Below, piece by piece: positions 1 to 40,031 of a stretch of 64,000 nucleotides of DNA (its first letter is position 1; the number at the start of each line of letters is the position of its first letter). This DNA is from Asparagopsis taxiformis (Eukaryota > Rhodophyta > Florideophyceae > Bonnemaisoniales > Bonnemaisoniaceae). The position numbers were made by a program, and so were the translations under genes. The DNA is taken from contig JALQPE010001976.1 of assembly GCA_030407315.1 (NCBI GenBank), positions 62,001-126,000 on the forward strand, read 5' to 3'. Under the pieces are notes generated by a model that worked only from the letters and a program-made list of their open reading frames with translations, had not been told where the DNA came from and did not search any database.

Positions 1-9
1 ATCCGTTAT

Positions 10-14145: not shown

Positions 14146-14630
14146 CACTACGGTGTTGAGAATGAAAACAGACAGTAAATTTACTGTCTGAGACAGTAAA
14201 AATTACTGTCTGGCCAAGACAGTGCGCGGAGACAGTAAAATTTACTGTCTGGAAATTTCAGAATACTGCTGCAGCAGTAAACTGGCACGAAATCTGGACA
14301 GTACCAAAAACAGTAAAATTTACTGTCCAGAACAGTAAATTTTACTGTCCGGAAGTGTTGCCGCCAGACAGTATGTGCAGACAGTACATTTTACTGTCTG
14401 AGACAATACATTGTACTGTATTACTGCACTGTCTGGGGAAATCTGTAGACAGTAGTGTAGATAGCAAATTGTATTGTCTGCGGGTAGTACCGTGCATTGT
14501 TTGACAACACTGTCTGGTGGAGTGGACTTAGAGGAAATATGGAGCATAGTGTTGGTGTGAAGGTAAATATTGGAATGGTGTGTGGTATACGACTATATTA
14601 ATTGTGATGGTGCTTTACAGATAGTTGGGT
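14146..14630. repeat. E1 left terminal and subterminal repeats (type L end)
   Basis: The CACTACGGTGTTGA terminus is followed to about 14540 by at least ten copies, in both orientations, of ACAGTAAAATTTACTGTC-like palindromic motifs. The whole segment reappears inverted at 55690-56182 with high similarity, which defines the L-type end of this family. Such motifs bind the transposase or accessory protein in characterised CACTA elements (known for En/Spm). Confidence 0.88.
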
Positions 14631-15047
14631 GCGGGGAAGCTAGATGCTGAATAGGACGTTGGAGAAAGGAAGATTGGGAGAACAGAACATATCTGGTTTG
14701 TCTCACCGTAAGGAGAGAATGTACATAGTAGCTATAATATGTTGAGTTTAGCATTTCAAATTATACCTATCTATCTTTGCATTGAAAGTGTCTAGTAGGA
14801 GACGTCAGTCTGGTAGCGAGGTGTGGTATGCACAGGACGTGGGTGGTGGCAAAGGAAAGAATACGCACCATCCACCACTAAATTATGAAAAATAACCGTT
14901 ACGGAGCACTGGGAAGCATTATTATTATGTAGAGTAGACCAGGATGGATGCATCCACTGAAATGATATTTGCTACAACACTGCTGTACTAAGCGTGACAT
15001 CCTTCAAAGCAATTCTCCTTTTAGCAAACTCCAATTGCAAGGTCAAG

Positions 15048-16574
15048 ATGAATCCCGAAACCTCCGTAAGCATCGCCGCATTTTCCGAAATAACGCGTGA
15101 GGGCTTTTCGAACATCACTGCAGAGTTGAAAGCCCTGAGTGATAAAATGGATGCCGTCGAGAAGAGCACCATTCAATTACGCGAGACTCTCGGAAATGTC
15201 GCCAAGACTGTCTCCATGCTAAACACCGATATGCAGGAGGTCAAGAGCATCGTCGATGGGCTTCTGAGCCAGGGACAAGGACATCCGAAGAAGATCGCCT
15301 CCGAGAAGGACAGGGAACGTCTCCGCATTGCGCAGGATGCGGAGAAATCGTTCACGTTCGAAATGGTGTGTGCTGTGCTGTGTGCTGTTGTTCCAACGTA
15401 CACGAAGGCAATGGTGGATAAGAGGGATAGGCATTTCAACGGATGCCAGCTAATCAATACGCTGATGTTCGCCAGGCAGAGCAATGAGCGAAAGGATGTG
15501 TTCAATAGGACGCTTGCCGGCCGGAACCACATTGAATTGCGCTGCCAAGTTGTGACCTCTTTAATCAAGAATACGTGTCAAAACAATTCTTTCAGAGAGG
15601 GAGGAGACCGTTCCAGCTCCAATGGAACGTCGGAAGGTATCGAACGGTGGAGGGCGCGGGGGTATGTGACTACCGGGACCATTGAGGAGACAATTCGCGG
15701 AACGGACTCTGCTCGCATGGATGGAATGCATGGGACGTCCGAGGGAAGTGATGGGGCCGCTCGAAAGCAGAAGCGAAGAAAGGTTGGAGACAATGGGCCG
15801 TTGCACAGAAAGGAGGTAGGCATCACTGTGACGAAATCGGCACTCACAGCAGTGACCGGGTTTATGAACAAGTCCAGAGATCATGTGCGAAACCGGTTCA
15901 TCCGAGATCTTGGATTCGTTCTATACAGTGGGTTTCAAGGTTCAGTCCGAATGGAGCATCATTTGCACGACGGTGGGCTGGACATTGAGTCAGTTCCAAG
16001 TCTGTACTCGGCGCAGAGGAAAATGAATGCAGCGGAGCGTGCAGCAATGGATGACAAGAATATGAAGATTCTTCGCGACTTCATTGCAGTGCGAAAAGAA
16101 ATGCTATTCAAAGTCGAGTACGAAGTTCAAATAATTGGAGAACCGGACAAGAGGTTTTTGACTAGGAGGATCAATTTAGTAGAGGTTGCACTGAACTTTG
16201 CAGTCGCCTACACGCAATGTTCTGATAAGAACATGTTCCTGCGACGTTCAGAATACTCCTTGCAATTCATCTACATACTTGCATACGGGTTCCGAACGAT
16301 TTTGAAATTTCAAAGTGGAACAGAGGTGGAAGGAGCGCAAATCCGGGAAATCAATGAAGCAGTGAAACTGCTTCTTCCCGGGGAGCGGGTGAGTAGTCGG
16401 TTCATGAATGAGGAGGTTTTGACTATATCGCGTGATAGATATGAAGAACTGAACGTAGACGATGGGGGGGAATCAGTGCTGGAGGAGAGCTTCAGGTCTA
16501 TGGAAGAGGACGGAGGAGATGCAGAATATGTGAAGGTATTCGTCGATGATGAAATCGAGAATGAAGGGGAGTAG
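15048..16574 (+). CDS. Orphan coiled-coil protein of E1 (508 aa), candidate accessory transposition protein
   Basis: The first in-frame ATG is at 15048 (TCAAGATGA); the frame is open further upstream but without ATG. Residues about 10-75 form a heptad-rich, coiled-coil-like N-terminus (FSNITAELKALSDKMDAVEKS). A basic Ser/Gly-rich middle follows (residues about 180-265, with RKQKRRKVGDNG, a possible nuclear localisation signal). A conserved-looking globular part comes next (HDGGLDIESVPSLYS, FAVAYTQCSDKNMFLRRSEY), then an acidic tail. I recognise no family. It lies right inside the L terminus. In En/Spm-type CACTA elements a second protein besides the transposase binds subterminal repeats, so that role is a reasonable guess and no more. 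No homologue is seen in E0 or E2. Confidence 0.7.
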   Translation: MNPETSVSIAAFSEITREGFSNITAELKALSDKMDAVEKSTIQLRETLGNVAKTVSMLNTDMQEVKSIVDGLLSQGQGHPKKIASEKDRERLRIAQDAEKSFTFEMVCAVLCAVVPTYTKAMVDKRDRHFNGCQLINTLMFARQSNERKDVFNRTLAGRNHIELRCQVVTSLIKNTCQNNSFREGGDRSSSNGTSEGIERWRARGYVTTGTIEETIRGTDSARMDGMHGTSEGSDGAARKQKRRKVGDNGPLHRKEVGITVTKSALTAVTGFMNKSRDHVRNRFIRDLGFVLYSGFQGSVRMEHHLHDGGLDIESVPSLYSAQRKMNAAERAAMDDKNMKILRDFIAVRKEMLFKVEYEVQIIGEPDKRFLTRRINLVEVALNFAVAYTQCSDKNMFLRRSEYSLQFIYILAYGFRTILKFQSGTEVEGAQIREINEAVKLLLPGERVSSRFMNEEVLTISRDRYEELNVDDGGESVLEESFRSMEEDGGDAEYVKVFVDDEIENEGE

Positions 16575-16849: not shown

Positions 16850-18211
16850 TCATTTTTGCTCCGGACTGCAGGTGGCAGGTGGAGGAGAGGGTGGGTGGGT
16901 AGTGTCTGAATCCGCATTGAAGCCAAGACGAGAGATAGCCTCATAGCCAATGTCTTCAAGCTCCTGGCATATAGTAGTACCACTGAAAATACAGCAAGGT
17001 AAGCGTAGATGTAGTGTACCAAACGTCTCTGCGGTTGATAGAGGCTGGAAAGTGCTGTAACAAGCTCGGCGCTGAATACGTCTCCACAGTAACGAAAACG
17101 TTGCTCCATAAGTAACAGTAGCCTTATCACGTAGGTGGAAAGAGTCCACGATGCTAGACTGTGATAGTTGGCTAAGACATAGGGGATGTAAAAATGTATT
17201 GTTGACATGGTCAAACTCGTAGGAGTCTCTGCAAAGAACTGTCATACGTTGGTCTGGGCTGGACAGGACGTAAGCAGATGAGCCGACGAGAAATGCGGAA
17301 GAAGGAGCATCATGAGAGCAGTCAACGTCGACTAGATTTCCTAAAATTCGGACAATCGATGAGCTGCCTCCATCGCGTTCCGCCCTGCTCTTCACCAATA
17401 TTTTCTGGAACCCGTGTTGCGAGGTACCTATGGAGTCACATAGTGCCTGAAAGGTGGGGAAAATGATGGAAAGATCCGACTCATTTCCAGAGGGAAAGGT
17501 GATGTCCTCAAAGGACGGCAGGAAGAGAACATCACGATTCTCTTTCGCCTTGCATTGAATGGCAATAGTGCGGAATTGAGCAAGGGAGCAGTCAGCCTGT
17601 ACTCTGATTTCTTCTTGCGATGTTTGTCGCATTCCCCTGGAGTGCTCGGATTTTGTCATCCGGAGGGAGAGGGGCTTGTCCGTGTACACACCAAGCTTCT
17701 GAAACAGAATGCTACATACAGTCAGAGCAGAGGAGGTCATGGAGCTGTTGGAATCGAATGGAGGGGGAAGAGGATGTTTGGCAGCTGACTCCAGCTTTTC
17801 CAATCTTGCCAGCATTTCTGCTATGGTCTTCTTCATTTGATCCGCAGTGCAATCTTGAAGGATGCCGCGGTGGCGGTGGCGAGTGTGGTCAATGCCGTAG
17901 TCCGGGTCTCTCTCTGCTGGGGATGCAGGTGAGTCCATACTGCGAAGCTCACCACTTCGCCACGGGAGAACCCTTCCGGAATCCTTGTCGACGAGCTCGT
18001 TACGATCTGAAATCTTGACTTGAGAAAGGGTAGAGTCGAAACCATATTCAGCTTTGTATTCGAGCAATGCATGGAGGAATGGGTCTGTTTCGGTCTTGAC
18101 CTGAGTAATTTCCTTGACGATTGCAGACCACCACACAATTTTTCGTTTCCTCCCAAACGGCCGAAGTTCCCATTGAACTTCTATAACGTCGTTTGGAGCG
18201 AGAGGAAGCAT
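16850..18211 (-). CDS. Tudor/SH3-barrel-like protein (453 aa)
   Basis: ATG at 18211 (CCCAACATGC). Residues about 7-90 read VIEVQWELRPFGRKRKIVWW, then AIVKEI, LEYKAEYGFD and VLPWRSGEL. The WW pair, alternating beta-strand pattern and length suit a Tudor/Agenet-type SH3 barrel, the fold that reads methylated lysines or binds nucleic acid; this is by pattern only. A short predicted coiled coil (QMKKTIAEMLARLEKLE, about residues 124-140) follows. A second region with LFQKLGVYTDKPLSL and DCSLAQF is also conserved in the E0 copy at 11072-12063. The C-terminus is Pro/Ser-rich. It is divergent from the methyltransferase-SET gene, sharing a 513-bp promoter gap with it, an arrangement repeated in E0. 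Confidence 0.7.
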   Translation of the reverse strand: MLPLAPNDVIEVQWELRPFGRKRKIVWWSAIVKEITQVKTETDPFLHALLEYKAEYGFDSTLSQVKISDRNELVDKDSGRVLPWRSGELRSMDSPASPAERDPDYGIDHTRHRHRGILQDCTADQMKKTIAEMLARLEKLESAAKHPLPPPFDSNSSMTSSALTVCSILFQKLGVYTDKPLSLRMTKSEHSRGMRQTSQEEIRVQADCSLAQFRTIAIQCKAKENRDVLFLPSFEDITFPSGNESDLSIIFPTFQALCDSIGTSQHGFQKILVKSRAERDGGSSSIVRILGNLVDVDCSHDAPSSAFLVGSSAYVLSSPDQRMTVLCRDSYEFDHVNNTFLHPLCLSQLSQSSIVDSFHLRDKATVTYGATFSLLWRRIQRRACYSTFQPLSTAETFGTLHLRLPCCIFSGTTICQELEDIGYEAISRLGFNADSDTTHPPSPPPATCSPEQK

Positions 18212-18724: not shown

Positions 18725-21700
18725 ATGGAAGGAACGTTCCACAATCACGGTGAAAAGCACGACGGATGGGTGTTCATCGACCCCAATCAAGTCAGCAAAT
18801 TCGTATCGATTCGCGATGTTGATGCAAGTCATGTGGAAGCGCTCATGGAGAGCATTCGCAACAGCGGTTATGACACAGCTCATCCCGTGACTGGCAGGTT
18901 TCGAGAAGGCGTTCTGGAGATATTGGATGGAGCGCACCGCTGCATGGCAATTGTACGTGGAATGGAGAAGGGCGTCTTTCCTCCTGGCGTTACGATTCCT
19001 ATGCGAGAAGAGTCTATCGTGGCGGACACCAACAGCAGTACTGCTGTTGTGCTGGACCGTGTGAGAGCGACGACATCCAACGACATTGCAGGCCTGCAAA
19101 GGCGCATGATGTTTGTTGAGTATCTGATGATCGCCGTTGATCTCAGAGACGAGTACTGGGTCCAAAAAGGAAAGGACAAGTACGCTCATATTTCGTCTGT
19201 GAGGATGGCCGATGTGTTGGGCTGGATCAAGTCCTGCGATCCAAGCGGCCAAATTGCTTCAAGCCTGAGTGGTAAACCGCAGTACAGCTCATGCATGTCT
19301 ATCCTGGCTGTGCTTCGGCCGTATCACCGAGCAGAAGATTCGAGTGCGATTGATTTGCGTCTGTGGCAAATGTTTTGTCATGCATGGGGACTCAATGCAG
19401 AGATGGGTGATTCTCCGAGGATGGTTGAGTTTCCGAAACAGGTGGGGGTGACTAGTTCTCGTGCCGTCGAAATGTTTGGCAAGACACCCCGCGGAGAATT
19501 GTCCTCTCCACTGAACCGCGAACTGCTTTCGAGCAGGTACTTTCTAGACGGCGCTACATCCGACATGCAAGATTCTTTGCAGGCTAGCCAGAAGCGGTTC
19601 AGGAGGCTGATGGTTATGATGTGCCAGTGTATCTTGGCTATTCGCAGTAAGGAGATGGGCAGTGCGCCATCTAGGCGGGCCAGAGCCACATCCGGGGCCA
19701 TTGGTGGTGGTGGAATGGTTGGAATTGCAACATCCAGTGCGCAAGCCAACCAGCTTGGATTTGTTGTCGACCGTGTGTTAGCTGCGTGGGATACCGGGGC
19801 AAGAGTGTTGGGGTATGAGGATGTTGAATCGATGTGCTGGCCGTTCATGGTATTCGATCCTGCGAGCCTTTGCTTCAGGTCACTCCCGAATCGGTCTGAT
19901 GGCTGCGCGGTCGAGGAGCATCGGAAAAACCTGACCATTGTCCCGAAAACTGTAGACAGTGAAAACGGGTTCTGTGCCGACCTTCCAGTGGCTGTGGATG
20001 CAAGGCTGCGATCATTGACAAGCGCCTTCCTGCTGTCGATACGCCAATGTGTCACTGAGGTGAATGTGTTCGCCGAGCGTGGTCAGCTGATGCAGAGACT
20101 TCGAGCCTTGCTTTTCGACACTCCTGACAAGTTCGGATTGAACTCGTTCATGCGAGCCAAGTTGAACACGTCTCATGCCCTGGATGGTCAGAGGAGGCTG
20201 AAGGCTTGGTTATTGCGAACCCGAGAGCAACGAAAGCTTCCTCTGACCATGGATGAGTTGCACAGTCTTGAGGATACGCCCGAGCCTGGCATCCTTGAAG
20301 GTGCACCTGCGCAGATGGAAATATCCGCAGCAGTGCCAAACAATGGCAGCGAGGATATAGAAGAGGATAGTCTGGAGCCACAGAGGAAGAAGGCTAGGCT
20401 GGAGCGCGGTGGTGGAGAGGACGATAATGCGGCGGTTGCTAGCGAAACAGCAACAAGAGAAGGTGCGGCCGAGGATGACGCTATGGAGGTTGACACTGTA
20501 TCGCCTACAGAAGCACCGCTCGTTGACGTCGGAAAGGAATCCAAGCCGGAATATGTCACCAAGCTGGAAGCTGTGATGGGGCGTTACATTCACACTGTGA
20601 ATTGTGACGCCACTGATGTAGCCAAAGAGGTGGAGGACAAAATTAGTTTCCTGGAAGATGGCGTGTTGGAGGACAGTGTTCAGCTTGTGCTCACTGATCC
20701 TCCATTCAACACGAGGCGGGAAGGCGGCAGAGAAAACTCGGAGTACGATATTCTGGAGCCGGAAGAGTTGGCGAGTGTTGCGTGTGAAATAGTTCGAGTT
20801 CTTCGGCCTGGCGGTCATGCTCTAATCTATTCCAGCGTGCGCCAACTCGTGGCATGGATGGATGCAATCAGAAATGCCGAGCCTGGCAAGATGATTGTGG
20901 ACAGTGTTCCAGTCGTGCTATCTCGCCGACCACACAGCTTTACGTCCAATCCATCGACGAAAACGTGCACACTGCATAATATGCACGATTTCGTTATCCA
21001 TGCGTATAAGCGGGGGAAGGGTATGGCTGCATACGATATGGTGGATTACAGGTTGCACAATCCGGACATATCGAGGCACCCTGGGTTCACCAACGCGATT
21101 GACAACGTTCCGAGGTTGTCGGCTGGTGAAGCTCAATACGATGGGCAGAACAACCGACTGCGCCATGAGCAGAAGGCGTTGACCACTCTTCGTGAGCTTC
21201 TGGAACGATTTTCGAAGCAGAACGATATCGTGATGGATTTCTTCTCGGGAACATACAGCACAGCCATAGCGTGTATGACGTTGAGGGATGGTACGTATCG
21301 TCGGTTCATTGGGTGTGAGAAGGAAAAAAGGTGCCACGATGCATCGCAGGAGTGGATACTGCATGCTTTCGTCAGTGAGGTGAAAGCCGGGCGATATGGG
21401 GGGATCTTGCAGCGTGAGGTGGAGAGTATTCTTGGGGACGAGTCGGTACCGGTCACAGGAAAAGCTCCAAGGCTTCGTCAGAAGCACATCTCAGATGCAC
21501 CAGAAGGTTTACCTGCTGTGACAGCATTGCCGAACCATCTGCTTGTGTTCGTTGCGTCAATGAAGAAGGACGGTTCTATGCTTCACAGATTGAGCGGGGT
21601 GCCTATGGACCAGTGGCCGGCCGAGGACATGCACTCGTTTTGGAGCATAGACCCGGACGCGATTCTGGCTGCTGATGCCGCATTCTACGGTGTCTATGTT

Positions 21701-22192
21701 TCGCAATCGGAGGTAAGAGGTGGTGGGTTTGGCGTATTCGCGGCGAAGAAACTGAAGAAGGGGACGGTCATTGGCTGGTACAACGGGACGATTTTCTATG
21801 CGAAGATTCGAGACTCGGAACCGCAGAGATCAGTGATGTACGGCCCGGAAGGATTTGGGTGCACAGGACAGAGGTTCCAGGACTACAACATGGAATTGGA
21901 AACCACGTACATAGGGAGGGGTGCACCTGTTCGGAAGGTCTGGCTCGTTCCAGCGGTCTATAATTGTACCAGCTACCTCAATGATTGTCGGGTCATTGAC
22001 GGAACGGAGAAAGCGACCGAGGTGAGTCGAACACAGTCAGCCGAGTTTCGACAAGGCGATGCCATAGACAAACCGGACTTTGCTTCGAATATCAAGAATC
22101 CCCATGCTGTCAAGGTCGTTCTGACCAGAGACGTTGAAGCTGATGAGGAGATATTTGCTGACTATGGTAGAAAATATTGGCCAGCTAACTGA
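18725..22192 (+). CDS. ParB-like domain - DNA amino-methyltransferase - SET domain fusion protein (1155 aa)
   Basis: The start is ATG at 18725 in a strong context (GCCATGG). Residues 15-95 hold a ParB/sulfiredoxin-like domain with LEILDGAHRCMAIV (DGAHR at 68-72). A conserved helical region of unknown function runs to about 500, followed by an acidic, basic-patched linker. A beta-class DNA methyltransferase follows, with LTDPPFNTRRE (DPPF at 658-661), VLRPGGHALIYSS (about 692-704) and motif I, DFFSGTYSTAIAC (838-850), then RRFIGCEKE. DPPF with this order is typical of N6-adenine or N4-cytosine enzymes. The C-terminal SET domain has GGFGVFAAKKLKKG and GWYNG (about 1000-1021), CTSYLNDCR (about 1081-1089) in place of the usual NHxC-type motif, and EEIFADYGRKYW (1141-1152). 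The frame is intact. Product methylation, DNA plus protein lysine, is inferred. Confidence 0.9.
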   Translation: MEGTFHNHGEKHDGWVFIDPNQVSKFVSIRDVDASHVEALMESIRNSGYDTAHPVTGRFREGVLEILDGAHRCMAIVRGMEKGVFPPGVTIPMREESIVADTNSSTAVVLDRVRATTSNDIAGLQRRMMFVEYLMIAVDLRDEYWVQKGKDKYAHISSVRMADVLGWIKSCDPSGQIASSLSGKPQYSSCMSILAVLRPYHRAEDSSAIDLRLWQMFCHAWGLNAEMGDSPRMVEFPKQVGVTSSRAVEMFGKTPRGELSSPLNRELLSSRYFLDGATSDMQDSLQASQKRFRRLMVMMCQCILAIRSKEMGSAPSRRARATSGAIGGGGMVGIATSSAQANQLGFVVDRVLAAWDTGARVLGYEDVESMCWPFMVFDPASLCFRSLPNRSDGCAVEEHRKNLTIVPKTVDSENGFCADLPVAVDARLRSLTSAFLLSIRQCVTEVNVFAERGQLMQRLRALLFDTPDKFGLNSFMRAKLNTSHALDGQRRLKAWLLRTREQRKLPLTMDELHSLEDTPEPGILEGAPAQMEISAAVPNNGSEDIEEDSLEPQRKKARLERGGGEDDNAAVASETATREGAAEDDAMEVDTVSPTEAPLVDVGKESKPEYVTKLEAVMGRYIHTVNCDATDVAKEVEDKISFLEDGVLEDSVQLVLTDPPFNTRREGGRENSEYDILEPEELASVACEIVRVLRPGGHALIYSSVRQLVAWMDAIRNAEPGKMIVDSVPVVLSRRPHSFTSNPSTKTCTLHNMHDFVIHAYKRGKGMAAYDMVDYRLHNPDISRHPGFTNAIDNVPRLSAGEAQYDGQNNRLRHEQKALTTLRELLERFSKQNDIVMDFFSGTYSTAIACMTLRDGTYRRFIGCEKEKRCHDASQEWILHAFVSEVKAGRYGGILQREVESILGDESVPVTGKAPRLRQKHISDAPEGLPAVTALPNHLLVFVASMKKDGSMLHRLSGVPMDQWPAEDMHSFWSIDPDAILAADAAFYGVYVSQSEVRGGGFGVFAAKKLKKGTVIGWYNGTIFYAKIRDSEPQRSVMYGPEGFGCTGQRFQDYNMELETTYIGRGAPVRKVWLVPAVYNCTSYLNDCRVIDGTEKATEVSRTQSAEFRQGDAIDKPDFASNIKNPHAVKVVLTRDVEADEEIFADYGRKYWPAN

Positions 22193-22489: not shown

Positions 22490-22905
22490 GGGGATGCTGA
22501 CAGCAAAGTCATCGTTACGATGACTTTGCTGTAAGAAAACAAATCATTACAGCAGCCATGATTTCTTTACCGGGTAAAAAAATTGTGGCCGCTGTAATGA
22601 AACGTTTTCTTACAGCAAAGTCATCGTAACGATGACTTTGCTGTAAGAAAGCAAAACATTACAGCGGCCACAATTTTTTACCCGGTAAAATTTCTTGCTG
22701 ATTTTTTACCCGGTAAAAAATTCTTTGGCCACTGCAAGGAAACGGTTCCTTACAGCAAAGTCATCGTTACGATGACTTTGCTGTAAGAAAACGTTTCATT
22801 ACAGCGGCCACAATTTTTTTACCCGGTAAAGAAATCGTGGCTGCTGTAATGATTTGTTTTCTTACAGCAAAGTCATCGTAACGATGACTTTGCTGTAAGG
22901 AACCC
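22490..22905. repeat. E1 palindrome array, block 1
   Basis: Four copies of a 37-bp near-perfect palindrome, with arm TTACAGCAAAGTCATCGT, one central T/A and the mirror arm. They alternate with shorter palindromes around TTTACC(C/G)GGTAAA. Copies occur in both orientations, recognisable by CGTTACG versus CGTAACG at the centre. Confidence 0.92.
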
Positions 22906-23484
22906 TGGTAAACGGCTTCAGCTGTAAGCAGCAGGGAGTTTCGTCCTTCTCCCTTCTTGGTAAAGGTACCTTTACCAAGATGGGAGAAGGACGAAACTCC
23001 CTGCTGTCTCACATGAGAAGCGAAGTGTGAAGTAGGGAACATCACGGGAGGATGGTTTGGACGGCTGTTGGTCGCAAAATCTACTCCTTGTGCCGTGAGC
23101 CACAGCGACCATATGGTACCTGTGCCTCACGGCATAAAATATATATTCAACCCGCCCGGGCGGGAACCGGCGCCGGTTCCGGTGCACTATAGTCGTCAAT
23201 AAGTAGGACTCTAGCTACTCACTATACAACTATAATCGTAAGGTAGGATAGCCTAAGATCGTAGTACGGAAGAGACGGATGGGAGGGTGTGTGTAGAGGA
23301 AAATTAAGGCGGCAGTACGAGTAGCCTATCGTGGTAATAGACGAGTATTTCATTGCGAGAGGGGGCGTGAGGGGGGAAACGAAAGGCGTCAGTCGTCACC
23401 AGAGAGGCTGGGATGCTGAAGGCGGAGTAGAGAAATGGGGGAGAGGGTGAAGCCAGACTGCTTACAGCTTTGGCAGTTCCGGCG

Positions 23485-23790
23485 GGGTGCTGACAGCAAA
23501 GTCATCGTTACGATGACTTTGCTGTAAGAAAACAAATCATTACAGCAGCCATGATTTCTTTACCGGGTAAAAAAATTGTGGCCGCTGTAATGAAACGTTT
23601 TCTTACAGCAAAGTCATCGTAACGATGACTTTGCTGTAAGAAAGCAAAACATTACAGCGGCCACAATTTTTTACCCGGTAAAATTTCTTGCTGATTTTTT
23701 ACCCGGTAAAAAATTCTTCGGCCACTGCAAGGAAACGGTTCCTTACAGCAAAGTCATCGTTACGATGACTTTGCTGTAAGGAACCCTGGT
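23485..23790. repeat. E1 palindrome array, block 2
   Basis: Three copies of the 37-bp palindrome with interleaved TTTACC(C/G)GGTAAA palindromes. It repeats most of block 1 at 22490-22905 almost base for base. Confidence 0.92.
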
Positions 23791-29508: not shown

Positions 29509-32249
29509 TCAGATATCTAAACGCTCCCAGTAGTTGACATTGAAGGGAGGCTGTAGCAACTTCTCCCTGGAAGTTCGCAGTGATAGATGGGACCGGATAG
29601 GATGCTGGTACCTCACCGAAGAACGACCCTCCGCGAATCCCATTCCTCCGTGATACACGTCCGTTCGGCATACAAGCAGGGAATACGGTGGGATGCGCAC
29701 GTTCGTCACTGGCACGCGGTACTTGTCTTTCGCTGGATGACTTAGGCACACATGGCTGAACTTGGCGATACGAATGATGAACCCATCCGCACCAGCAGCC
29801 ATCATGAAATATGATGGCGAGTTGAGAGGACCAGTTCCAGTTCCCTCACGGACGGGAACATCGGTATGCATAAGTTGCTCCTGACTACCTTCTGCGGTCA
29901 AAATCAGACGAAGACCCGTTTCTGGAAAGACCACCGCTTCTTCTCTTCCAAACCCGAGCTTCAGGTTCTCCGCACAAATCGCCTTACCTAGCTCCAGAAT
30001 CAGCTTGTTCCTGTACTGCCGCGCGCTTTCTTGCTCAAGGTCATCGCAGATGCTTTTCCGGTCCGTCTTCAATACACCAGTGCTGTCTTTCGGTCGAAGT
30101 GGTTTCCACGTGTTCTTCTGACTTGCACTCGAGCCACTTGCAGTACCTTGGAATGTGCTGGCCATCTGTGTGAATAACTCGGGCTAGTGCTGTAAGTTTC
30201 TGGTGTCCTGATTCGAAGTTTCAATATCACAGAGCGGTTCTGCGCATCTCCAGCCTGTTGTCCAGGCGTGTCTATGTCCATGCGACCACTATTGTCCAAG
30301 TTGATATCCAGACTTTGCGTATCGCCGCTTTGTTTCCTTCCCTGAGGAAGATCTTCTCTGACAATCCTTCCCGGCGAATTATCCCTGGCACGACTTTCCC
30401 GCTCTGCCCTTGAAGCTGAAAGACGTTCCTGTTCTTTTTGGAGAACAGCAAGACGTTCTGCTTCCCTCTTCTCAGCTGCTGCAAGACGCGTGGCAGGACG
30501 TTCCTGTCCTCCCTCTTTTGCTGCGGCAGGACGGTCTTCTGCTTCTTTCGGGGTGCTCAGAGGTGCCTCTTCTATTGCTTTCGTCGCGACAGCAGGAATC
30601 ACTTCTTCAGCCACCACATTTGGAGTAATTTCCTGTTCTTCCTCCACAACAGCAGAAACTTCCTGCTCTGCTTGGGCTTCGGCAGATACTCCTTCTTCTG
30701 CTTGAACAGGACCAGAAGTTTCCACAGTTTCCTTCTCTGTAGAATTATTTCCCTGTTCTGCGGCAGTAGGTGCTTCTTCGTCTTCTGCTTTGGCGCCATC
30801 AACAAGTGCTTTTTCTATTTCTCCGGGGGTCATGCGATTCCGTTCCCTCTCCTCCTCCGCTTTCGTCTCCTGCATTGCCTTTGTCCCGGTAGCATATTCC
30901 AGTTTGTCGTAAAAACTGTTTGTAAACATCCCGTTCTTGGTTCTCAGACTGCTACTGTCTACCACGTCGTCATGAAAGTCGACAAGGACGAATACAATGC
31001 GCTCTCCAATGCGATGATCATTATCCCCGACCTCCTTCGCGTTTTCTGCTGCCAAATCCGTTCGCACGAATTCCTCCATCGTTGCAGAGTTCAACCACTT
31101 GCGGACGACCTCTGCCATATCATAGATGGCCAACAGAGCCAGTAGCCAAGTGCGCATCGTGAACGGACTTCCGCTTCCGATATTTCTGACAAGTCCTCTC
31201 TTCCTCCTCATCCTTGTCCACGACGCTGTCATCTCGAGCACAAACCACTGGAACCACTCCTTATCGCGCGTCCCGCGTCCGTCCGTGCCATTGCGGAATA
31301 TTGCGTTATTGACAAGATCGAGCACGCACCCGTACATATCGGCAGAGTCAATTCGAGAAAAGTCCGGATCTCTTCCCTCGGTTCTTGCATCCTCGATTTC
31401 TCTGTTCCTATCCAAAGCATTGTAAACGCTAGGGATAGAGCTCCAGTACACGAAAGCAACGCTGTCTGTGCGATTGAACCCCTTCGCAATGTTGATGTAC
31501 TGCCTATACGAGTTCTCCGAACGGTTCCTGTCGGACGGCAGAATATAGCTCACTTCTTTCAGAATAGGAATAAGCCGGACAACAGGAAGATCCATCTGGT
31601 TGGAAAACCTGAGAAACTCTATGACCGCACACACATTGTCGGCAATGCTCACAGAAGCGACATCGTGAGTTTGTATATTGGCTTCGAGAGACAGTTTCAG
31701 AACCTCCAGCGCATCGAAAATTAGACGCCCGTTCGGCGCAATCAACTGTTGTACCCAAACCAATTCCAAGGAATCCCTGTTCTTTCCTGAGTACTTCTCC
31801 AGGCATAGTTGCAGAGCAGCTATGCGATGAGAGCCATCGATGCAGTAAAACTCGTCTCCTTCGTTATCTTCCATTTTGCAGACTGTAATCATAGTTCCAG
31901 TGGTAGAGAAACCTCTATCCATGAAAATGCTGGCCAGTTCGTTTACACGACCCGGTCGCACCAAACGGGAGGTCACTGTCGGAAATTTCACTTTGCGAGG
32001 ATCAACTTGCACTTTAGAAGAGCTGTACTGAGCAATAGTGATGCTTTTCTCTTCAGCAGAAGGAGAATTGCTCTTCTCCGCTGTAGTATTCATGATACTA
32101 TTGTCTCCCATTGTAATCCCTGCAATCTCAGTTCGTTCAATCGGTTCTCTGTTCAAATGTTGTGTAGACGATGAAATCCACAATTGTGGTACCTCCGAGT
32201 GCGCTTCCCGTCTCTCAGCTTCCTCTCTTATACTGTCCGGACAAGACAT
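29509..32249 (-). pseudogene. Second ParB-dioxygenase-like gene of E1, frameshifted and internally deleted
   Basis: The first frame (30069-32249, ATG at 32249) carries the ParB-like motif YCIDGSHRIAAL (DGSHR at 138-142), the shared helical region (SIADNVCAVIEF, AKGFNRTDSVAFVYWSSIP) and a Glu/Ala-rich, coiled-coil-like linker. It then runs out of frame. The second frame (29509-30165) resumes at the sequence that aligns with HELFGHF and carries HTD (MHTDVPV), SYFMMAAGADGF, IPPYSLLVCRTDVYHGG and IRSHLSL. The roughly 100 residues that should precede it in the family (SRMKYY through the FAVKKALLENLG-like segment) are missing, so this is a deletion plus frameshift rather than a simple indel. An intron at the join cannot be fully excluded. 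Confidence 0.75.
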
Positions 32250-33880
32250 TCCCTACCTACGTTCAGTCCTGATGAACCTTACGCTGCACCCGCTCAGCAC
32301 CTCTGACTCTACCTGATCCTGATACCTCCACAAAGCGTTTAGCCCTTTCCATCAATCTACACCTAATAGTATGTACCTCTAGCGCATATAATGCAATCGA
32401 ACCCGTTTACCTCACCACGTCAATTATCATTCATATTCCAACAACCTATTTCATCCACACTCTCCACCTCGCTTCTTCTTCCGTACCATTGATTCCTATC
32501 AATCGATTCTACGTGAGTTTTATACATTTACTACGATCCACCTCTCCTACAAGTCTGAAAAATTCATTTCTACACTAACTTTTGCTACTCACAAATGAAC
32601 GGTTCCCGTGCAGGCCACTGCTTGAATTTCTTCCTATTGGCGTACTCGGCTGCAAAGGATTCATAGACTATTTAAACGGTGATCATATAAATGGTTTTCA
32701 ATGTGCTCCAATGGACAATACACCAAAGAACATCAATATGAATTCATTTCAACTACCTATTCACTACTGCGATTCAGTTTTCTTGCATACCAAATCTCAT
32801 TGCGTTCCTACCCTAGTCGATTCAAAATGCTTCCTCTTCGTCAGTTGATCAATATTCCTTATTCCTTACAACGAGCAGGTCCTCTGGACATCCTAAAGTT
32901 GGTTACTTAACCTTAACTATCGATGAATTTGCTGTAATGAAACGTTTTCTTACAGCAAAGTCATCGTTACGATGACTTTGCTGTAAGAAAAGAAAACATT
33001 ACAGCAGCCATGATTTCTTTACCGGGTAAAAAAATTGTGGCCGCTGTAATGAAACGTTTTCTTACAGCAAAGTCATCGTTACGATGACTTTGCTGTAAGA
33101 AAAGAAAACATTACAGTAGCCATGATTTCTTTACCGGGTAAAAAATTGTGGCCGCTGTAATGAAACGTTTTCTTACAGCAAAGTCATCGTAACGATGACT
33201 TTGCTGTAAGAAAGCAAATCATTACAGCGGCCACAATTTTTTTACCCGGTAAAATTTCTTGCTGATTTTTTACCCGGTAAAAAATTCTTCGGCCACTGCA
33301 AGGAAACGGTTCCTTACAGCAAAGTCATCGTTACGATGACTTTGCTGTAAGAAAGCAAATCATTACAGCTGCCACGATTTTTTTACCCGGTAAAACATTC
33401 TTGGCCACTGTAATGGAAACGTTTTCTTACAGCAAAGTCATCGTAACGATGACTTTGCTGTAAGCATACCTCCCTCCATCCTCTCAGATCCTCTCCCCAC
33501 TACTTTGCACCAATCCACCACCGCCCTAGAGTGTACAATTCATATGTGATGCATCTGGTTATTCATTTTATTCTTCCCTAAAAATCATGCAGCCCTCGGT
33601 GGAAATCCGTCTCGCCTACATAGTGCATATATCTCTCCACCCTCCAGCAGTCCGGGTCCGTGCCTTACCTCCCTCATGTTCTCATCATATTCGCATACAC
33701 TCCCATTGCAATAGTGCATACCAAACACCTCAGTGACTCCCTCACTCATCTCCACAATTACTGTTCGTCGCCTCTCTTCGACCTTGAACACTCCTTCATC
33801 AGTTTTTTGCAAACCCAGGCAAACTCCATAAGCTGTACCTTGCTCATCTCTCGCACTCTCGTTCCTCAGGATAAAGAACG
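32250..33880. other. Intergenic region of E1 upstream of the second dioxygenase-like gene
   Basis: About 1.6 kb between the 5' end of the second dioxygenase-like gene and the 3' end of the transposase gene. AT-rich sequence to about 32920 is followed by the palindrome array at 32930-33467. The short frames here have no protein-like features. Confidence 0.5.
32930..33467. repeat. E1 palindrome array, block 5 (longest)
   Basis: Five copies of the 37-bp palindrome separated by GCGGCCACAATTTTT-type spacers containing TTTACC(C/G)GGTAAA palindromes. It has the same architecture as blocks 1-4. Confidence 0.92.
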
Positions 33881-36800
33881 CTAGAACAATAAAAACCGCG
33901 GTTCATAATTAATTCTTCCCCGCATTATCTCTGATGTGAGACGAGACGCCGGGTACAGAATCGCTTGTGAAGTTGCACCATCCTCACATTTCATCTGTTC
34001 AGGGCAAACAGCATGGATGATAGCTCCTGATTCTAGAGAGCCAGACCTCTGCACTGTTTTCCTTCCCCACTCTGTCGTAGTGCTTCTAGAAACTCTTCTC
34101 ACCCATTCGGCATACTTTCCACACCCGCTTGTTCCGCTTCCGTACCTTTCGGTAAAGAACCGTTTGAAAACACCTACAGCACCCTCTGCCATATCACATT
34201 TTCCATTCATGTACTCCTTGACCTCGTCAATAGATATACCTCCATGCCCTCTCCACGTCACAATTTCACCATCCGCCGACAATATCTTTCCTCGACGCTG
34301 GGAGAGAAGCTGGAGAACCGGTTCCTGGAAGCAGTTTTTCACTACCTCGTCTTCCACATCTATTTCTCTCCCTAGCTCCTGTGAAAGAACGTTGACCATT
34401 TGAGAGCATTCGGACGAGGACCAATGTTGTGGCTCCATGCCGATTTCGCGCAAAACAATGGCCACTCTCGTCTGCCAGTCATCCGCAAGAACTAATTCCA
34501 GCGCTGAAAGCTGTTCGCTTTGGTGATTGGACATTCTCACACCTTTCTTCAGCGGCTGATGCATCCGTTCGAATATAAGCTCCTGCACGTGCTTCACAGA
34601 GCCGTAGGCAGGAAGCGTATGAACACAAAACTCGACAAGACGATGAACATTAGGCTTGTCCAAATGTGCTCCTGCTCCCTTCACTTTCCGACAATACTCA
34701 TTCAACGTCTCCACGTAGTCTACAGTTCTTCCCAGAATGTATTCATTCCTGCCACCTTCTCCGTCAGCCGTCTCTACTTCATGGGGACCGTCTTTCCACC
34801 ATACGGGCATGAAACTAATACACGAAACCAGCTTCTGAAACATCACTACTAGTTTGACGGCCCCATCAAATTTTTCACGATGACCTTCCCCTTTCCCATC
34901 CATCATTCGAGCTGCGTTTTCGAATGCCATAGGTGCTATCAGAAGCACACTGAATATGTCACTCATGTTCATGGAAAGCAGATTGTTGGTTCCAAATAAA
35001 CGGTTCTGCCTTCCCATCCTGAACTTCTTCAGAGCGCCCAGAATTTGCAATTCAGCTACCTCTCGAATTCGTGGGCTGGCAGCTGAAATACAAGCGTTCA
35101 GTACATCTTGTGCCAGTCCAGACAATAGATGGTCAGGTGCTATCACTGCGGAACGGTACGGGTCAAAAATTGCTGGGACAACTGAAACTCCGTTTTCCGT
35201 CTTCGGTACTTCTTCCTGCACTGCTTCCAAGGAAGTGCTCAGGACATGAAATGGTAAATCTTCCCCTTCTTCTGCAGCCAGTCCGAGAGTGCGAAGCTGG
35301 GTTTCTGTGGCATCCTTACGTGTCGATGCATTCCGATACTTGCTCCTGGCATGCGTCGATGTTTGCCCGTTCACTACCGAAGTGTATGCATTCTTCGTGC
35401 CACCAGTACTGCTCAGGTCATATTTGCGGAAACTGCAGATGTGGCACGGAGAGTTTGATGTGTGTCCAAGAACATCCAGGGTATGTGAAACTGCAGGATA
35501 GTCTCCAATGCTCCCCACTGGGTCTAGAAATACCACAATATCTTCTCCCTCTGCATTTTTCGTTGGGAAACCCTCTGTGCTTCCTCGCACTATATCTTGA
35601 ACGATATATCGCAATACACAATTTGTGGACACTCCCGGAGGTGGCAAACCAATCACTCGAACCGCTTGGTAGCTTCCCCTTTTCCGAGGCGGTAGATTGA
35701 GAGGTAACATATAGCATCCACCAAAACTTCCCTTCCTGCTTGTGAATGGTTCAAAGTCATCCGTGTAAAGGAGAAATCGGTAAACAAAGTAGTTTCGACC
35801 ATCCTCCAGCTTTCCCCAACATGGTGCATCTTCTCGCGGAGACGCTGGGTGCCATTGCGACCTGTGGTCTCCGAAACCATCCGAGAACACCCCTGAAACA
35901 CGAATTTCTTCATAGTTGGGGCTTCCTAGTCTATCGGGCGGGTTTCTGGCTTCAGCAAAGCTCGCGCCCGGTGAAAAGCAAAGTAACATGGTGGATGCTT
36001 CTCCGACCTGCTCTTTCAAATACCTGTTCACCAATACGACGTGTGGAACAATATCACCCTCTTCCATTCCAATTGGTAATAGAACGGTTATCACGTCCCC
36101 AGCTCGTGTTCCTTTTCCCTTGGCTCCTGCTCCGATTACACATTGCGATATCGCTCGCAGAGCATGCTGCCTCTCCCATTCCAATAGATGTGACATTCGC
36201 GGCTGCAGATATTTTTCGACATGCACATCATGCTCACCGTCGTGTCGAGCCTCATAGGTAACTATGGTCCTAGCATGAAGTTCCCACAACGACGTAACCG
36301 CCACTCTTCTCCTCTTCGGTTTCCCACCATCTCTGTCATTCTTCCTGAACCCTTTTGCTCTTTCGATGACGGCAACCTGACGAGCTCCTGGATGACATCG
36401 GATTCGAATTGCTGTTCCATCAGGTACATAAATGTGCTTCAAACCCTTTTTCCCATCGCTGTCAATGGGAACAACTGCTGTGCGAACGAATGGGTCGCTC
36501 AAAACACCCCTCCTGCACTTTGCAATGAACGAATCTTCAATGCTGCACTCTGCGGTTGATTTTTCTCCTTCCGAGCTTCGATTGTTCGCATCACTGCGGA
36601 ATGCTTTAAAGATTGGTCGAGTCTGGACATCTTTCAGAGCCCATGTGCTTGGGAGTACAATACGAACTTTCGCCATTCCTCCACAATTGTCTCTGTCATC
36701 TGTTGTTCCACGGGTTCCTACTGCACCTCGATGCTGTGCAGCTCTTGCTCCGCTCTTTCGAAGGTCTATCGGAAACTCGATGTCACAGCTCTTTGCATAG

Positions 36801-37387
36801 CAATGTTTCCTCAAGAATGGTAGTATCTTCTGTCGCATCACAGAGTCCGACGGGACGTGCTCACTTGGATCTCTGCGGAAATTCATTCCGAACAGGGTAC
36901 CTTCATAGTGGGCTCTTGTCATTCTTTGAGTTCCACTCAGCTGAAGAGCCCCATACATCGCAGGCCATTGTAGTAATGCCTTGAAATCACCACATGCTTC
37001 ATCCCCAGCATTTCGGTCTATCGGGCCTCCAGTTGAAATGGAATCAGAACCTCGTCCGGTTGCTTCTTCCGATTCCATTAGCGTGCTCGATGCTACGTAG
37101 ATGTCACTTCCAGCTTCATCGTTGTTGCTGTACACATCAATACAACCTTCTATTGTGTCACCCATAGGGATTGGGGACTCCAATAGGTCATCTGTGGTAC
37201 ACTCACGTCGTAGCTCATTACCTCTCGGGATTTCTTTGTTCATGCAGGCTGCATCACTGCTGCGGATTTCTCCCTGCAGTTTCCCAGGAAGCTGTTTACT
37301 GGGACTGGCCACATTGAGTGAATCGAATCTCGCCTTTGTCCTACGACTTGTGGTTTTCTTTCGAATAGGAGTCCGTCTCGGAGCCAT
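33881..37387 (-). CDS. CACTA-type (TNP2-like) transposase (1168 aa)
   Basis: ATG at 37387. A basic N-terminus (APRRTPIRKKTTSRRTK) is followed by an acidic region. The catalytic core resembles the TNP2/Transposase_21 family: LYTDDFEPF (about 540-548) then MLPLNLPPRKR, matching the DGFNPF...LPP pattern; VVFLDPVGSIGDYPA (about 618-632) followed by GHTSNSPCHIC (a C-x2-C at 648-651); and KPNVHRLVEFCV with LPAYGSVKHVQELIFERMHQ (about 911-944). The frame is uninterrupted. It excises and reinserts the element by cutting at the CACTA ends; the termini at 14146 and 40031 agree with the family. It lies next to the R end. The exact catalytic triad was not aligned. Confidence 0.88.
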   Translation of the reverse strand: MAPRRTPIRKKTTSRRTKARFDSLNVASPSKQLPGKLQGEIRSSDAACMNKEIPRGNELRRECTTDDLLESPIPMGDTIEGCIDVYSNNDEAGSDIYVASSTLMESEEATGRGSDSISTGGPIDRNAGDEACGDFKALLQWPAMYGALQLSGTQRMTRAHYEGTLFGMNFRRDPSEHVPSDSVMRQKILPFLRKHCYAKSCDIEFPIDLRKSGARAAQHRGAVGTRGTTDDRDNCGGMAKVRIVLPSTWALKDVQTRPIFKAFRSDANNRSSEGEKSTAECSIEDSFIAKCRRGVLSDPFVRTAVVPIDSDGKKGLKHIYVPDGTAIRIRCHPGARQVAVIERAKGFRKNDRDGGKPKRRRVAVTSLWELHARTIVTYEARHDGEHDVHVEKYLQPRMSHLLEWERQHALRAISQCVIGAGAKGKGTRAGDVITVLLPIGMEEGDIVPHVVLVNRYLKEQVGEASTMLLCFSPGASFAEARNPPDRLGSPNYEEIRVSGVFSDGFGDHRSQWHPASPREDAPCWGKLEDGRNYFVYRFLLYTDDFEPFTSRKGSFGGCYMLPLNLPPRKRGSYQAVRVIGLPPPGVSTNCVLRYIVQDIVRGSTEGFPTKNAEGEDIVVFLDPVGSIGDYPAVSHTLDVLGHTSNSPCHICSFRKYDLSSTGGTKNAYTSVVNGQTSTHARSKYRNASTRKDATETQLRTLGLAAEEGEDLPFHVLSTSLEAVQEEVPKTENGVSVVPAIFDPYRSAVIAPDHLLSGLAQDVLNACISAASPRIREVAELQILGALKKFRMGRQNRLFGTNNLLSMNMSDIFSVLLIAPMAFENAARMMDGKGEGHREKFDGAVKLVVMFQKLVSCISFMPVWWKDGPHEVETADGEGGRNEYILGRTVDYVETLNEYCRKVKGAGAHLDKPNVHRLVEFCVHTLPAYGSVKHVQELIFERMHQPLKKGVRMSNHQSEQLSALELVLADDWQTRVAIVLREIGMEPQHWSSSECSQMVNVLSQELGREIDVEDEVVKNCFQEPVLQLLSQRRGKILSADGEIVTWRGHGGISIDEVKEYMNGKCDMAEGAVGVFKRFFTERYGSGTSGCGKYAEWVRRVSRSTTTEWGRKTVQRSGSLESGAIIHAVCPEQMKCEDGATSQAILYPASRLTSEIMRGRINYEPRFLLF

Positions 37388-39190
37388 CTTGATGTTTTTG
37401 TTCTTTTCTTCTTCGCTCAGTTTTGTGGCATAGAATACAACTCTAAACTTCTATGACATGACTACTATCTCAATACAGTACTACTACTTTTAACCGTTAC
37501 GAAACCTTTCCAGGCTTTCATTCGATCCAATGAACTGGTTCACCACAATGCTTTGCCCTATGCTCATTGCTTTATGCACATTGATTGCTATTTCATCCGG
37601 ACTCAACATCGTTTTGCTATCTTGTATCGCATCCCCTAACCACAAACCCAGCCAAGATGTATCCATTTCCGGAAAACGGCCGTTTATTTCGCAGTGATGC
37701 TCTAGGCACTAATACTGAATCTGATTTTCTCATACACGTACTTCCTACTCGTATACTCTACCATTTTCGGCCCTATTTACAAGTTGAAAGCACAATCTCT
37801 CGTTGAATCGTACTCGGTGTGATATCTTAAATTAGCATAAATTTATATATTGCAATGCAGATTCACTGCTCGCTTGCAACATGAAAATTATAAAATTTCT
37901 CCCACACTGCTGTTTCCTAGCCGCCCACATCCACGTGGCCCGCTTTGACTGCCTGCCAAGTGTGCTCAGAGCATGCAATGACGTCATCGATATATACCGT
38001 CCAAATCATCACTGGAAGCGCGGACTCCTCGTCCAGGAAAGTGCGCCATTTTTCCTACTCCTCGCCTCCCCCTTTCCAGTAGGCCCCATATGCTAGTGTT
38101 TTTCCTATATTTCTGTAGTGATGACGTCATTATAGACTTGAGAAGGCGGTAGAAGATACAATAATTTTGCGCCTGTTCTGCCAGGTCATGTGCTTCAAAG
38201 CGTAATTCGCACCCTAGGTATCGTTTTTCTGGGCCTCCCATCGCACCGCTCCGTTTCAAATTCATCCCTCTATTGTTCTCCTACACGTCATTTCCGCCCG
38301 CAGAGTGCTACTTAAACAACAGATTCTGGAAATCCCTGTTTCCATCTTCGTATCCGTCGGAAACAAAACAACAACTCTGGCTGTGGAAGCAGTACAGATC
38401 ATCTATACTGCTTCCAAAGCGTAAGTTGTAGATCATCAATACTGCTTCCAAAGCCAAAGTTGTTGCTTTGTCTCCGACGGATATGAACCATGATGGTACG
38501 TTTCCACAACTCACGCCACTAACCCAGTTTTCTATTCGTTTTCTCTTTCTCAGGTTTCCAGTCGGTGAGTGTTCCACTTCTACTTTCATTTATCTTTCTC
38601 TCTTACCACTTCTCCACTACTTTTCTTTTCTGCCTGTGAGTACATATCTCAATTTGGGATGCAATGGTATTTGTTAAGGTACGTTAGTCTCCTAATCACC
38701 ATCAATTTCCCTCTCCAATTCAACGTCACTAACTTGTTTCCTTTCTCTACATCATTTTTTCTTCTTCTCTTCATTTCCTAGCTTATTCATGCAACTCAAT
38801 CAGTTGATAGATTTCTAGACTTTTCTAGTAGTTTTAGTTTTACTCGTCGGAATAGTGTTAGTTGTAGTAGCATTTTTAACATAGGGATTGTTTATTCTCA
38901 ATGTAGCCTGCGCAAATAAACAAATCCAGAGTGAAGCTTCCCATATCGCACCCTCTTAGATTGCTACCTATCCTACCGCGTATACCTCTCGCTAGCTCAT
39001 AGTCACTACGAAATAAAAATTCCTAGCCGTACTATTCTGTCCATTCCCATATGAATACCGTCCATGCCCCATCCTCATAGCGCTAGAACTGCCTTCCTCT
39101 ACCCCAGAAAGATGCCCACGACAGCGTGACGCTCCATCTCATCCACCACTCCCAGACACCGAATTTTACTATATCAGGACACTACTTTTA
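37388..39190. repeat. E1 right subterminal region, duplicated in inverted form in E2
   Basis: From about 37490 to 39190 the sequence matches the reverse complement of about 41640-43260, with point changes and small indels. It includes a hairpin at about 38347-38490 (arms TATCCGTCGGA... and ...TCCGACGGATA, with an internal duplicated GCAGTA/TACTGC motif). No convincing gene is present; it serves as untranslated leader and subterminal DNA of the transposase gene. Confidence 0.75.
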
Positions 39191-39690
39191 CTGTCTCCAG
39201 GTGCTGCCCAGGGCAGCACGAAATACTGTCTCCAGGTGCTGCCCAGGGCAGCACGAAATACTGTCTCCAGGTGCTGCCCAGGGCAGCACGAAATACTGTC
39301 TACAGGTGCTGCCCAGGGCAGCACGAAATACTGTCTCCAGGTGCTGCCCAGGGCAGCACGAAATACTGTCTACAGGTGCTGCCCAGGGCAGCACAAAGTA
39401 CTGTCTACAGGTGCTGCCCAGGGCAGCACGAAATACTGTCTACAGGTGCTGCCCAGGGCAGCACAAAGTACTGTCTACAGGTACTGCCCAGGACAAGGAA
39501 AATCACTGTCTCCAGGTATTGCCCAGGACAGTGAAAATCACTGTCTCCAGGTACTGCCCAGGACAGTGAAAATCACTGTCTCCAGGTACTGCCCAGGACA
39601 GTGAAAATCACTGTCTCCAGGTACTGCCCAGGACAGTGAAAATCACTGTCTCCAGGTACTGCCCAGGACAGTGCACCGTGTTGGTTCCAT
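39191..39690. repeat. Subterminal tandem array of E1 R end (35- and 34-bp units)
   Basis: Starting at 39191, about nine direct copies of a 35-bp unit (CTGTCTCCAGGTGCTGCCC then AGGGCAGCACGAAATA) pass into about six copies of a related 34-bp unit (CTGTCTCCAGGTACTGCCC with AGGACAGTG). Each unit contains an inverted pair, GTGCTGCCC/GGGCAGCAC. The open frames through it on both strands are repeat artefacts. E2 has the same array with fewer copies (about 41440-41650). Confidence 0.93.
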
Positions 39691-40031
39691 CTATTGTCCC
39701 AGGCAGCGTATTTCACTATCCGGCCATGTTGCCTTGGCCAATACAAAACACTATCCGCCAACACTGCCCAGTACAGTAAATTACATCATATCCAACTATT
39801 GAATAAATCATTAATTTTTACTGTCTCCATTCACTGCCTCAGACAGTACTGTGAGACAGTGTTTTTTACTGTCTGCAGACAGTGTTCCGTACTGTCTGCC
39901 AGACAGTGCAAATCACTGTCTCCAAGTGTGGCATTAATTTTCATTTGCCGCATAGTGATTTTTACTGTCTCAGACAGTAAAAATCACTGTCTCGCAGTAC
40001 TGTCTGAGGCCCCCTTTTCAACACCGTAGTG
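39691..40031. repeat. E1 right terminus (type R end)
   Basis: Subterminal ACAGTAAAAATCACTGTCTC-like motifs lead to the terminus CCCCCTTTTCAACACCGTAGTG, ending at 40031. It is near-identical, inverted, to 41092-41440. Confidence 0.9.

Follow-up and report, generated by a model that had tools for sequence, protein, structure and literature searches.

A CACTA-like transposon family of the red alga Asparagopsis taxiformis carries a conserved cassette of putative DNA- and chromatin-modifying genes

E1 is a 25.9-kb CACTA/EnSpm-like transposon in the genome of the red alga Asparagopsis taxiformis, located in a 64-kb stretch of one contig (the window) of an assembly of 141 Mb in 3,156 contigs. Along with a TNP2-like transposase, it encodes two ParB-like/dioxygenase-like proteins (DIOX1 and DIOX2), a fusion of ParB-like, methyltransferase (MTase), and SET-like domains (MTase-SET), and a protein with a predicted SH3-like barrel (open reading frame 2, ORF2). 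Because a second, degraded element in the same window, E0, keeps the order and orientation of these five genes at only ~26–46% identity, the comparison shows a conserved cassette of putative modification genes rather than a chance capture. We are highly confident in the anatomy of the E1 family and its cassette. Our preferred explanation is that the cassette would mark the element with the element's own enzymes, directed by its palindromes, and we give this explanation as a whole a probability of about 0.5. Known transposons carry single epigenetic enzymes (TET/JBP or SET); the E1 family joins a putative writer fusion, paired eraser-like enzymes, and palindrome arrays in one conserved unit. 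This makes testable the question of whether a selfish element can write and read a private chromatin mark.

The extent of E1 is set by an exact inverted CACTACGGTGTTGA at 14146 (plus strand) and 40031 (minus strand), as a preliminary description of this DNA had proposed. In the window, five matches to CACTACGGTGTTGA with up to two mismatches were found against 0.42 expected from shuffles, and genome-wide there were 1,431 exact occurrences (722 + 709) and none of the reversed control. The sequence just inside the ends is unlike on the two sides, running to GAGAATGAAAA at left (L) ends and to GAAAAGGGGGCC at right (R) ends, with 341 exact L-type and 887 exact R-type ends genome-wide. Dense subterminal repeats are a typical feature of CACTA/EnSpm elements, and in E1 the hexamers GACAGT/ACTGTC reach 26.7 and 25.8 per kb at the two ends versus 0.4 per kb mid-element. 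By its CACTA / CA..TG inverted ends, E1 is a CACTA/EnSpm-like (CMCT) DNA transposon. A 35-bp tandem repeat array (39084–39811) adjoins its R end, and in three elements the spacing between the transposase and this end varies by 35-bp steps.

The E1 family is large and recently amplified. The copy counts given per gene concern the copies listed, and the scoring behind them prefers open copies, hence they are no census. On this basis, protein identity was 100% for MTase-SET (40/40, all with an open frame), for the matched part of the transposase (40/40), and for ORF2 (93/93), while DIOX1 was open in 38/38 copies, 33 of them at 100% identity and five at 98–99%. At 30 MTase-SET loci, the coding sequence had no nucleotide difference to the window in 28 and one in two (of 3,465). 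Full-length copies with both ends read span 25–27 kb. The spacing of neighboring genes was equally regular: ORF2 stood at exactly equal spacing from MTase-SET in 37 of the 40 copies listed (by coordinates), with DIOX1 in place beside MTase-SET in 14 and the transposase in nine, and these comparisons held no discordant pair. Other pairings gave discordant neighbors on C1569 (ORF2/MTase-SET), C1973 (transposase/ORF2), C663 (ORF2 and L end), and C272 (L end). An exact L end lay at the predicted spot for 43 of the 46 ORF2 copies listed on contigs C1–C632, and one of the three exceptions was too close to the contig start. Nine predicted L ends were read: the 14-mer was exact in eight and varied in L063. 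As far as this check could be run, ORF2 copies and the MTase-SET copies adjoining them travel inside CACTA ends, as expected if the genes and the termini co-occur.

E1 itself is flanked by AA and CG and so has no 2-bp target-site duplication. Among 15 elements with both ends read, six had identical flanking 2-mers (chance 1/16 each; p = 1.8e-4), namely five of seven shorter copies versus one of eight full-length copies. We put this shortfall down, tentatively, to identical 26-kb repeats having been assembled chimerically. The count left out three full-length candidates with no R end in the stretch read (C1830 first copy, C1892, and C1569) and the unpaired ends L001–L005, L061, and L067. For E2, a derivative element discussed below, it uses the outer R end (41092), chosen after the flank of the inner end (47285) had been found to recur; the inner end gives no 2-bp match.

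The ParB-methyltransferase-SET fusion named in the preliminary description held up. The E1 protein matched Pfam N6_N4_Mtase (PF01555; E = 2.3e-16; 60.9 bits versus a curated cut-off of 26.7) and SET (PF00856; E = 4.2e-6; 27.6 bits versus 22.4), and its N terminus matched a phage ParB PHROG (E = 0.003) as well as an unnamed PHROG (E = 1.7e-5), with the SET part to be read as SET-like only. Three related proteins (P0002, P0003, and P0004) also exceeded the MTase cut-off, P0002 and P0003 exceeded that for SET, and the four MTase-SET sequences have motifs in common. The motif DGAHR, a form of the ParB DG-x-HR motif, is present in three of them. Among the 12 phage matches of the fusion listed, 10 were annotated as adenine-specific methyltransferase, which suggests that the predicted MTase is of the adenine type. 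In viral contigs, MTase-SET had short matches at five loci only, each stopping short of the SET part.

Both DIOX proteins appear to pair a ParB-like N-terminal region with a putative dioxygenase domain. The HxD...H motif is invariant across four dioxygenase-like paralogues, and DGSHR/DGGHR, again the ParB DG-x-HR motif, occurs in the four dioxygenase sequences. Their N termini matched the profile of the MTase-SET N-terminal ParB-like domain with a probability of 80% (P = 1.4e-5), versus 0.1% in two control comparisons, and the ParB region of DIOX2 had weak, sub-cut-off matches to GmrSD_N (E = 0.066) and DndB (E = 0.098). No Pfam ParB match was found for the ParB-like regions of the E1 frames, the MTase-SET relatives, or the dioxygenases, and in profile searches of the PDB these regions retrieved no ParB. 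We place these N-terminal domains in the ParB/Srx superfamily as predicted members, and the dioxygenase assignment is a putative, motif-level call. Relatives of the dioxygenases were found neither by protein search nor in viral contigs or bacterial and archaeal genomes, and phages gave only two unconvincing records (E = 5 and 8). In E1 DIOX2 (29509–32249) and in both E0 dioxygenases (576–5972 and the adjoining 10 kb), the ParB-like and dioxygenase-like parts fall in separate, overlapping frames. An intron, a frameshift, or decay may account for these splits.

ORF2 had been called a Tudor-like reader. Its predicted SH3-like barrel stands; in predicted structure, the barrel matches CarD and ribosomal protein L19 no less than Tudor domains, and by sequence its only PDB matches had an E value of 0.25 or weaker. 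We therefore describe ORF2 as a putative SH3-like barrel protein, with which a Tudor domain is compatible and no more. A likeness to viral proteases in the top Foldseek rows (E = 0.018 or weaker; TM ≤ 0.25) was not accepted. The frames of MTase-SET, DIOX1, and ORF2 are open, in keeping with the three intact modification-type proteins first reported; left unnamed there were the second, split ParB-dioxygenase gene and ORF1, a 508-aa frame.

The transposase had also been described as intact, and here the window copy disagrees. Its frame stops at 1,168 aa, a length found in three of 10 copies read (this copy included), while six reach 1,267 aa and one 1,196 aa; the short form accounts for three of the 40 copies listed. 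The tail absent from it includes alignment columns at least 90% conserved among 30 sequences. Because of this truncation, E1 itself may be immobile or moved by proteins from other copies. The alignment with 29 database homologues contains invariant acidic residues, and C648/C651 (CxxC) are at least 90% conserved in it. A Pfam tnp2 match was obtained for one of the 30 aligned transposases (E = 1.7e-4), and the window protein itself had none.

The preliminary description saw one element with this gene set. That holds for E1; the window also holds E0, and at least three MTase-SET families are present. Across the left part of the window and the 10 kb next to it (L075), E0 reads transposase (+), DIOX2' (+), DIOX1' (+), MTase-SET (−), and ORF2 (+), which is the gene order and orientation of E1 when flipped, ORF1 excepted. 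Protein identity between the two is 46% for the transposase, 37–46% for MTase-SET, and 37% for ORF2; the dioxygenases are 41–46% identical in their C-terminal domains and 26–35% in their ParB regions. The protein collection has near-identical versions of E0 proteins with longer frames (P0002 and P0006, source ENA). A pair of CACTA-like ends was looked for in E0 and not found. An 84-bp near-perfect palindrome lies inside E0, upstream of its transposase (L075:2802–2885). The third MTase-SET, on contig C328, is 25% identical to that of E1 and 33% to P0003 (source JGI). Of 150 genome-wide matches scored with the SET profile, 140 had low and similar scores, most of them close to that of C328, and 10 scored far higher and resemble host genes; only one of the 140 low-scoring matches was read (C328, an MTase-SET).

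Between the genes of E1 lie 18 copies (up to three substitutions) of a 31-bp perfect palindrome, CAGCAAAGTCATCGTWACGATGACTTTGCTG, none of them inside a gene frame. Identity is 0.98 in the palindrome core versus 0.58–0.67 in flanks 6–40 bp off, with both strands of each copy pooled. Exact CAGCAAAGTCATCGTWACGATGACTTTGCTG sites number 8,354 genome-wide (reversed control, 0), and each of 30 MTase-SET loci has two to six of them, with the coding sequence free of them. In the first places listed, the sites are grouped, often 110–140 bp apart. E0 has a different palindrome, the 25-bp CAAAATAATACCSGGTATTATTTTG, in two gaps corresponding to those of E1; on cross-check, E0 was without the 31-bp palindrome of E1, and E1 without the 25-mer of E0. 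Dyads placed alike in the two families suggest that the element encodes a DNA-binding protein acting as a dimer, for which the ParB-bearing proteins would be candidates.

These features can be joined in one proposed mechanism. The ParB-bearing proteins would gather on the element's own palindromes, where the MTase would write N6-methyladenine (6mA) into the element's DNA, and histones, or another chromatin protein, would be methylated by the SET domain. The dioxygenases would erase or oxidise this mark, and the methylated chromatin or DNA would be bound by ORF2. As the outcome, the element and shorter palindrome-bearing copies might stay competent for transcription and transposition, or transposition might be timed. 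We hold the self-addressed marking step tentatively, at somewhat under an even chance. It is possible, if rather doubtful, that a private DNA mark is set by the element rather than by its host, with palindromes as addresses, a ParB-recruited dual writer, and two matching erasers or modifiers. If true, shorter copies retaining the addresses would share the protection, and the family would be a eukaryotic source of 6mA easily mistaken for bacterial contamination.

The host context bears on which mark might be involved. Demethylation of 5-methylcytosine (5mC) is the role usually considered for the TET enzymes of transposons (PMC12730594, section 4.2). A six-frame search of the genome found no C5-cytosine methyltransferase (PF00145), and the control matched in 10 of 14 prokaryote genomes. 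A search of this kind did detect ten host-type SET genes. Because no PF00145 was detected in the host, evasion of 5mC silencing fits poorly; this suggests that such escape is unlikely and that an element-made adenine mark would be the better candidate. Of the preliminary description, the conserved linkage of the transposase to modification genes is supported by E0, and its idea of evading silencing is unlikely to concern 5mC.

Several observations weigh against the proposed marking. The dioxygenase domain had no Pfam, NCBIfam, PHROG, or PDB sequence match, TET/JBP profiles included, and a structure model from the four-sequence alignment had a predicted local distance difference test (pLDDT) of 33, so the earlier ParB-dioxygenase-like label keeps its ParB-like part and HxD...H motif, with the fold unconfirmed. 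The canonical SET motif is NHxC, and this position reads NDCR in E1, NDSR in P0002, and NDPR in P0003 and is absent in P0004, in which the SET match was also below cut-off (E = 0.0078). Because of this altered motif, the part is called SET-like, by profile, and is at most a putative lysine methyltransferase. Motif I of the MTase is FSGTY instead of the canonical FxGxG, and neither of two readable N-terminal pieces of the third family has the ParB DG.HR motif. An MT-A70 search of the genome found none, but no control matched, so other host 6mA enzymes are possible. The palindromes raise their own difficulties. A second E1 palindrome, TTTTACCCGGTAAAA, has 16 matches (up to two substitutions) in the gaps (22565–33395), and because its centre resembles the palindrome of E0, the family specificity of the palindromes is incomplete. 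Nor are the palindromes shown to be confined to elements, because clusters also occur on contigs C7 and C8 without any listed exact end. Other possible roles for them are as hairpins, as regulatory sites, or as small foldback units that inserted there.

The main rival to self-addressed marking, which we judge unlikely, is that the ParB-like domains are nucleoside triphosphate (NTP)-dependent nickases or nucleotidases. The cassette, rather than marking chromatin, would then work in replication, in the control of excision, or against rival elements, and the palindromes would be transposase-accessory or regulatory sites. In PMC5512222, a nonspecific nicking activity is reported for the ParB-methylase Bce_0392, and ParB domains of mobile-element polyvalent proteins are suggested to be NTP-regulated DNases. 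The weak DIOX2 matches to GmrSD_N and DndB point to that branch of ParB/Srx. However, nicking accounts neither for the SET-like domain nor for the presence of palindromes in matching gaps of both families.

Alternatively, methylation may control transposition itself, which we consider quite unlikely. Here, the MTase would act on the adenine-containing subterminal repeats, the transposase would bind only un- or half-methylated ends after replication, the dioxygenases would reset the state, and histone marking would be secondary. Dam methylation controls bacterial transposons, and the subterminal concentration of GACAGT/ACTGTC (26–27 per kb versus 0.4 inside) would suit a predicted adenine-type MTase. 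However, the palindrome arrays are internal rather than terminal, and the SET-like domain is again unexplained. Large transposons can carry cargo, and the genes could have been picked up accidentally and multiplied as passengers that do nothing for the element; this is already disfavoured and very improbable, given a cassette colinear in two families at ~26–46% identity, motifs kept among four MTase-SET sequences, and open frames in 40/40 MTase-SET and 38/38 DIOX1 copies listed, with a scoring that favours open copies. The size of E1 and the prokaryotic type of several encoded domains might speak for an integrated virus or another element outside CACTA; this reading was rejected on the CACTA ends, the subterminal repeats, the TNP2-like transposase, and the lack of any virion protein family among Pfam matches of seven scanned frames.

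Large multi-ORF CACTA elements, SET-bearing transposons, and TET-bearing transposons are already known, the first because EnSpm families of 16–20 kb with four to five ORFs were reported from a red alga in 2013. These enlarged EnSpm/CACTA families of Chondrus crispus (Kojima, Bao and Jurka 2013, Repbase Reports 13:2577; cited in PMC6431247) are quite possibly related to E1. Compared by that cited description only, they are alike in superfamily, host group, and unusual size and ORF number, and differ in length (16–20 kb versus 25.9 kb for E1 and 25–27 kb for full-length copies). In DNA transposons bearing TET/JBP dioxygenases, too, the dioxygenase gene neighbors that of the transposase, and their CMCT clade has CA..TG ends and target-site duplications of 2–5 bp. 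The available main text of the source paper has no ParB and describes no MTase-SET fusion in them, whereas the E1 family has both, in a host without detectable C5-MTase and with a dioxygenase-like domain that lacks a TET/JBP profile match. HarbingerS and oomycete MuDR elements carry SET histone methyltransferases and so share with E1 a transposon-borne SET domain, but they belong to other superfamilies, and the available part of the source mentions no DNA methyltransferase fusion (PMC12730594). Bacterial and phage ParB-methylases likewise fuse a ParB-like domain to an adenine-type MTase (PMC5512222); the SET-like fusion, the eukaryotic CACTA context, and the paired ParB-dioxygenase genes set the E1 family apart from them. 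In the open-licence literature, with Repbase Reports outside its scope, no description was found of a ParB-MTase-SET fusion together with ParB-dioxygenases and palindromes.

Table 1. Features of the window, with coordinates counted from its first nucleotide.
Feature	Coordinates	Strand	Description
E1	14146..40031		CACTA/EnSpm-like element, 25.9 kb; L end 14146, R end 40031; inverted 14-bp ends and subterminal repeat density
L subterminal region	14146..14745	+	GACAGT/ACTGTC: 16 per 600 bp versus 9 in 22 kb of E1 middle
ORF1	15048..16574	+	508 aa; no Pfam match above cut-off; no E0 counterpart at E 1e-3
ORF2	16850..18211	−	453 aa, open; residues 1–90 predicted all-beta SH3-like (Tudor-compatible) barrel; most of remainder low confidence
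ParB-like/MTase/SET-like fusion	18725..22192	+	1,155 aa; ParB-like ~aa 15–80, N6_N4 MTase 652–875 (DPPF), SET-like 1001–1148
Palindromes, MTase-SET/DIOX1 gap	22501..23776		7 copies
DIOX1	24285..27932	−	ParB-like domain and HxD...H dioxygenase-like domain; open frame, 1,215 aa
Palindromes, DIOX1/DIOX2 gap	28170..29254		6 copies
DIOX2, dioxygenase-like part	29509..30165	−	218-aa frame, overlaps frame of ParB-like part
DIOX2, ParB-like part	30069..32249	−	726-aa frame
Palindromes, DIOX2/transposase gap	32953..33460		5 copies
TNP2-like transposase	33881..37387	−	1,168 aa, shortened in window copy
R subterminal region	38832..40031	−	35-bp tandem repeats; 31 GACAGT/ACTGTC hexamers per 1.2 kb
E0 (part in window)	1..12060		Degraded second element; transposase left of window
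E0 DIOX2'	to 2111	+
E0 DIOX1'	3064–5969	+
E0 MTase-SET	10355–6842	−
E0 ORF2	10961–12060	+
E0 palindromes	2534, 2651, 6397, 6511, 6625		25 bp, CAAAATAATACCSGGTATTATTTTG, up to 3 substitutions; in two gaps corresponding to those of E1 (2534..6649)
E2	41092..56182		Derivative of E1 family, 15.1 kb; duplicated R end (41092, 47285); DIOX1 relic 43479–45628; 9 palindromes; target-site duplication TC with outer R end
2-bp target-site duplication present			C19 AG, C74 GC, C104 GA, C64a AT, C212 TA, E2 TC
2-bp target-site duplication absent			E1, C10, C44, C64b, C168, C632, C1708, C1830 second copy, C1869

E2, to the right of E1, retains both ends but has no ATG frame of 180 aa or more. Its inner R end (47285) has an identical outside flank on two other contigs (L002 and L007), and because of this the tandem-R-end structure itself seems to have been multiplied. 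A scan of the window found no tRNA. Elsewhere in the assembly, phycobilisome proteins were noted, most of them on one contig (C469). Right of E2, the observed/expected CpG ratio is 1.59, versus 0.86 in E1, and frames resembling those of a long terminal repeat (LTR) retrotransposon were recognized by eye on the minus strand at 57143–63400.

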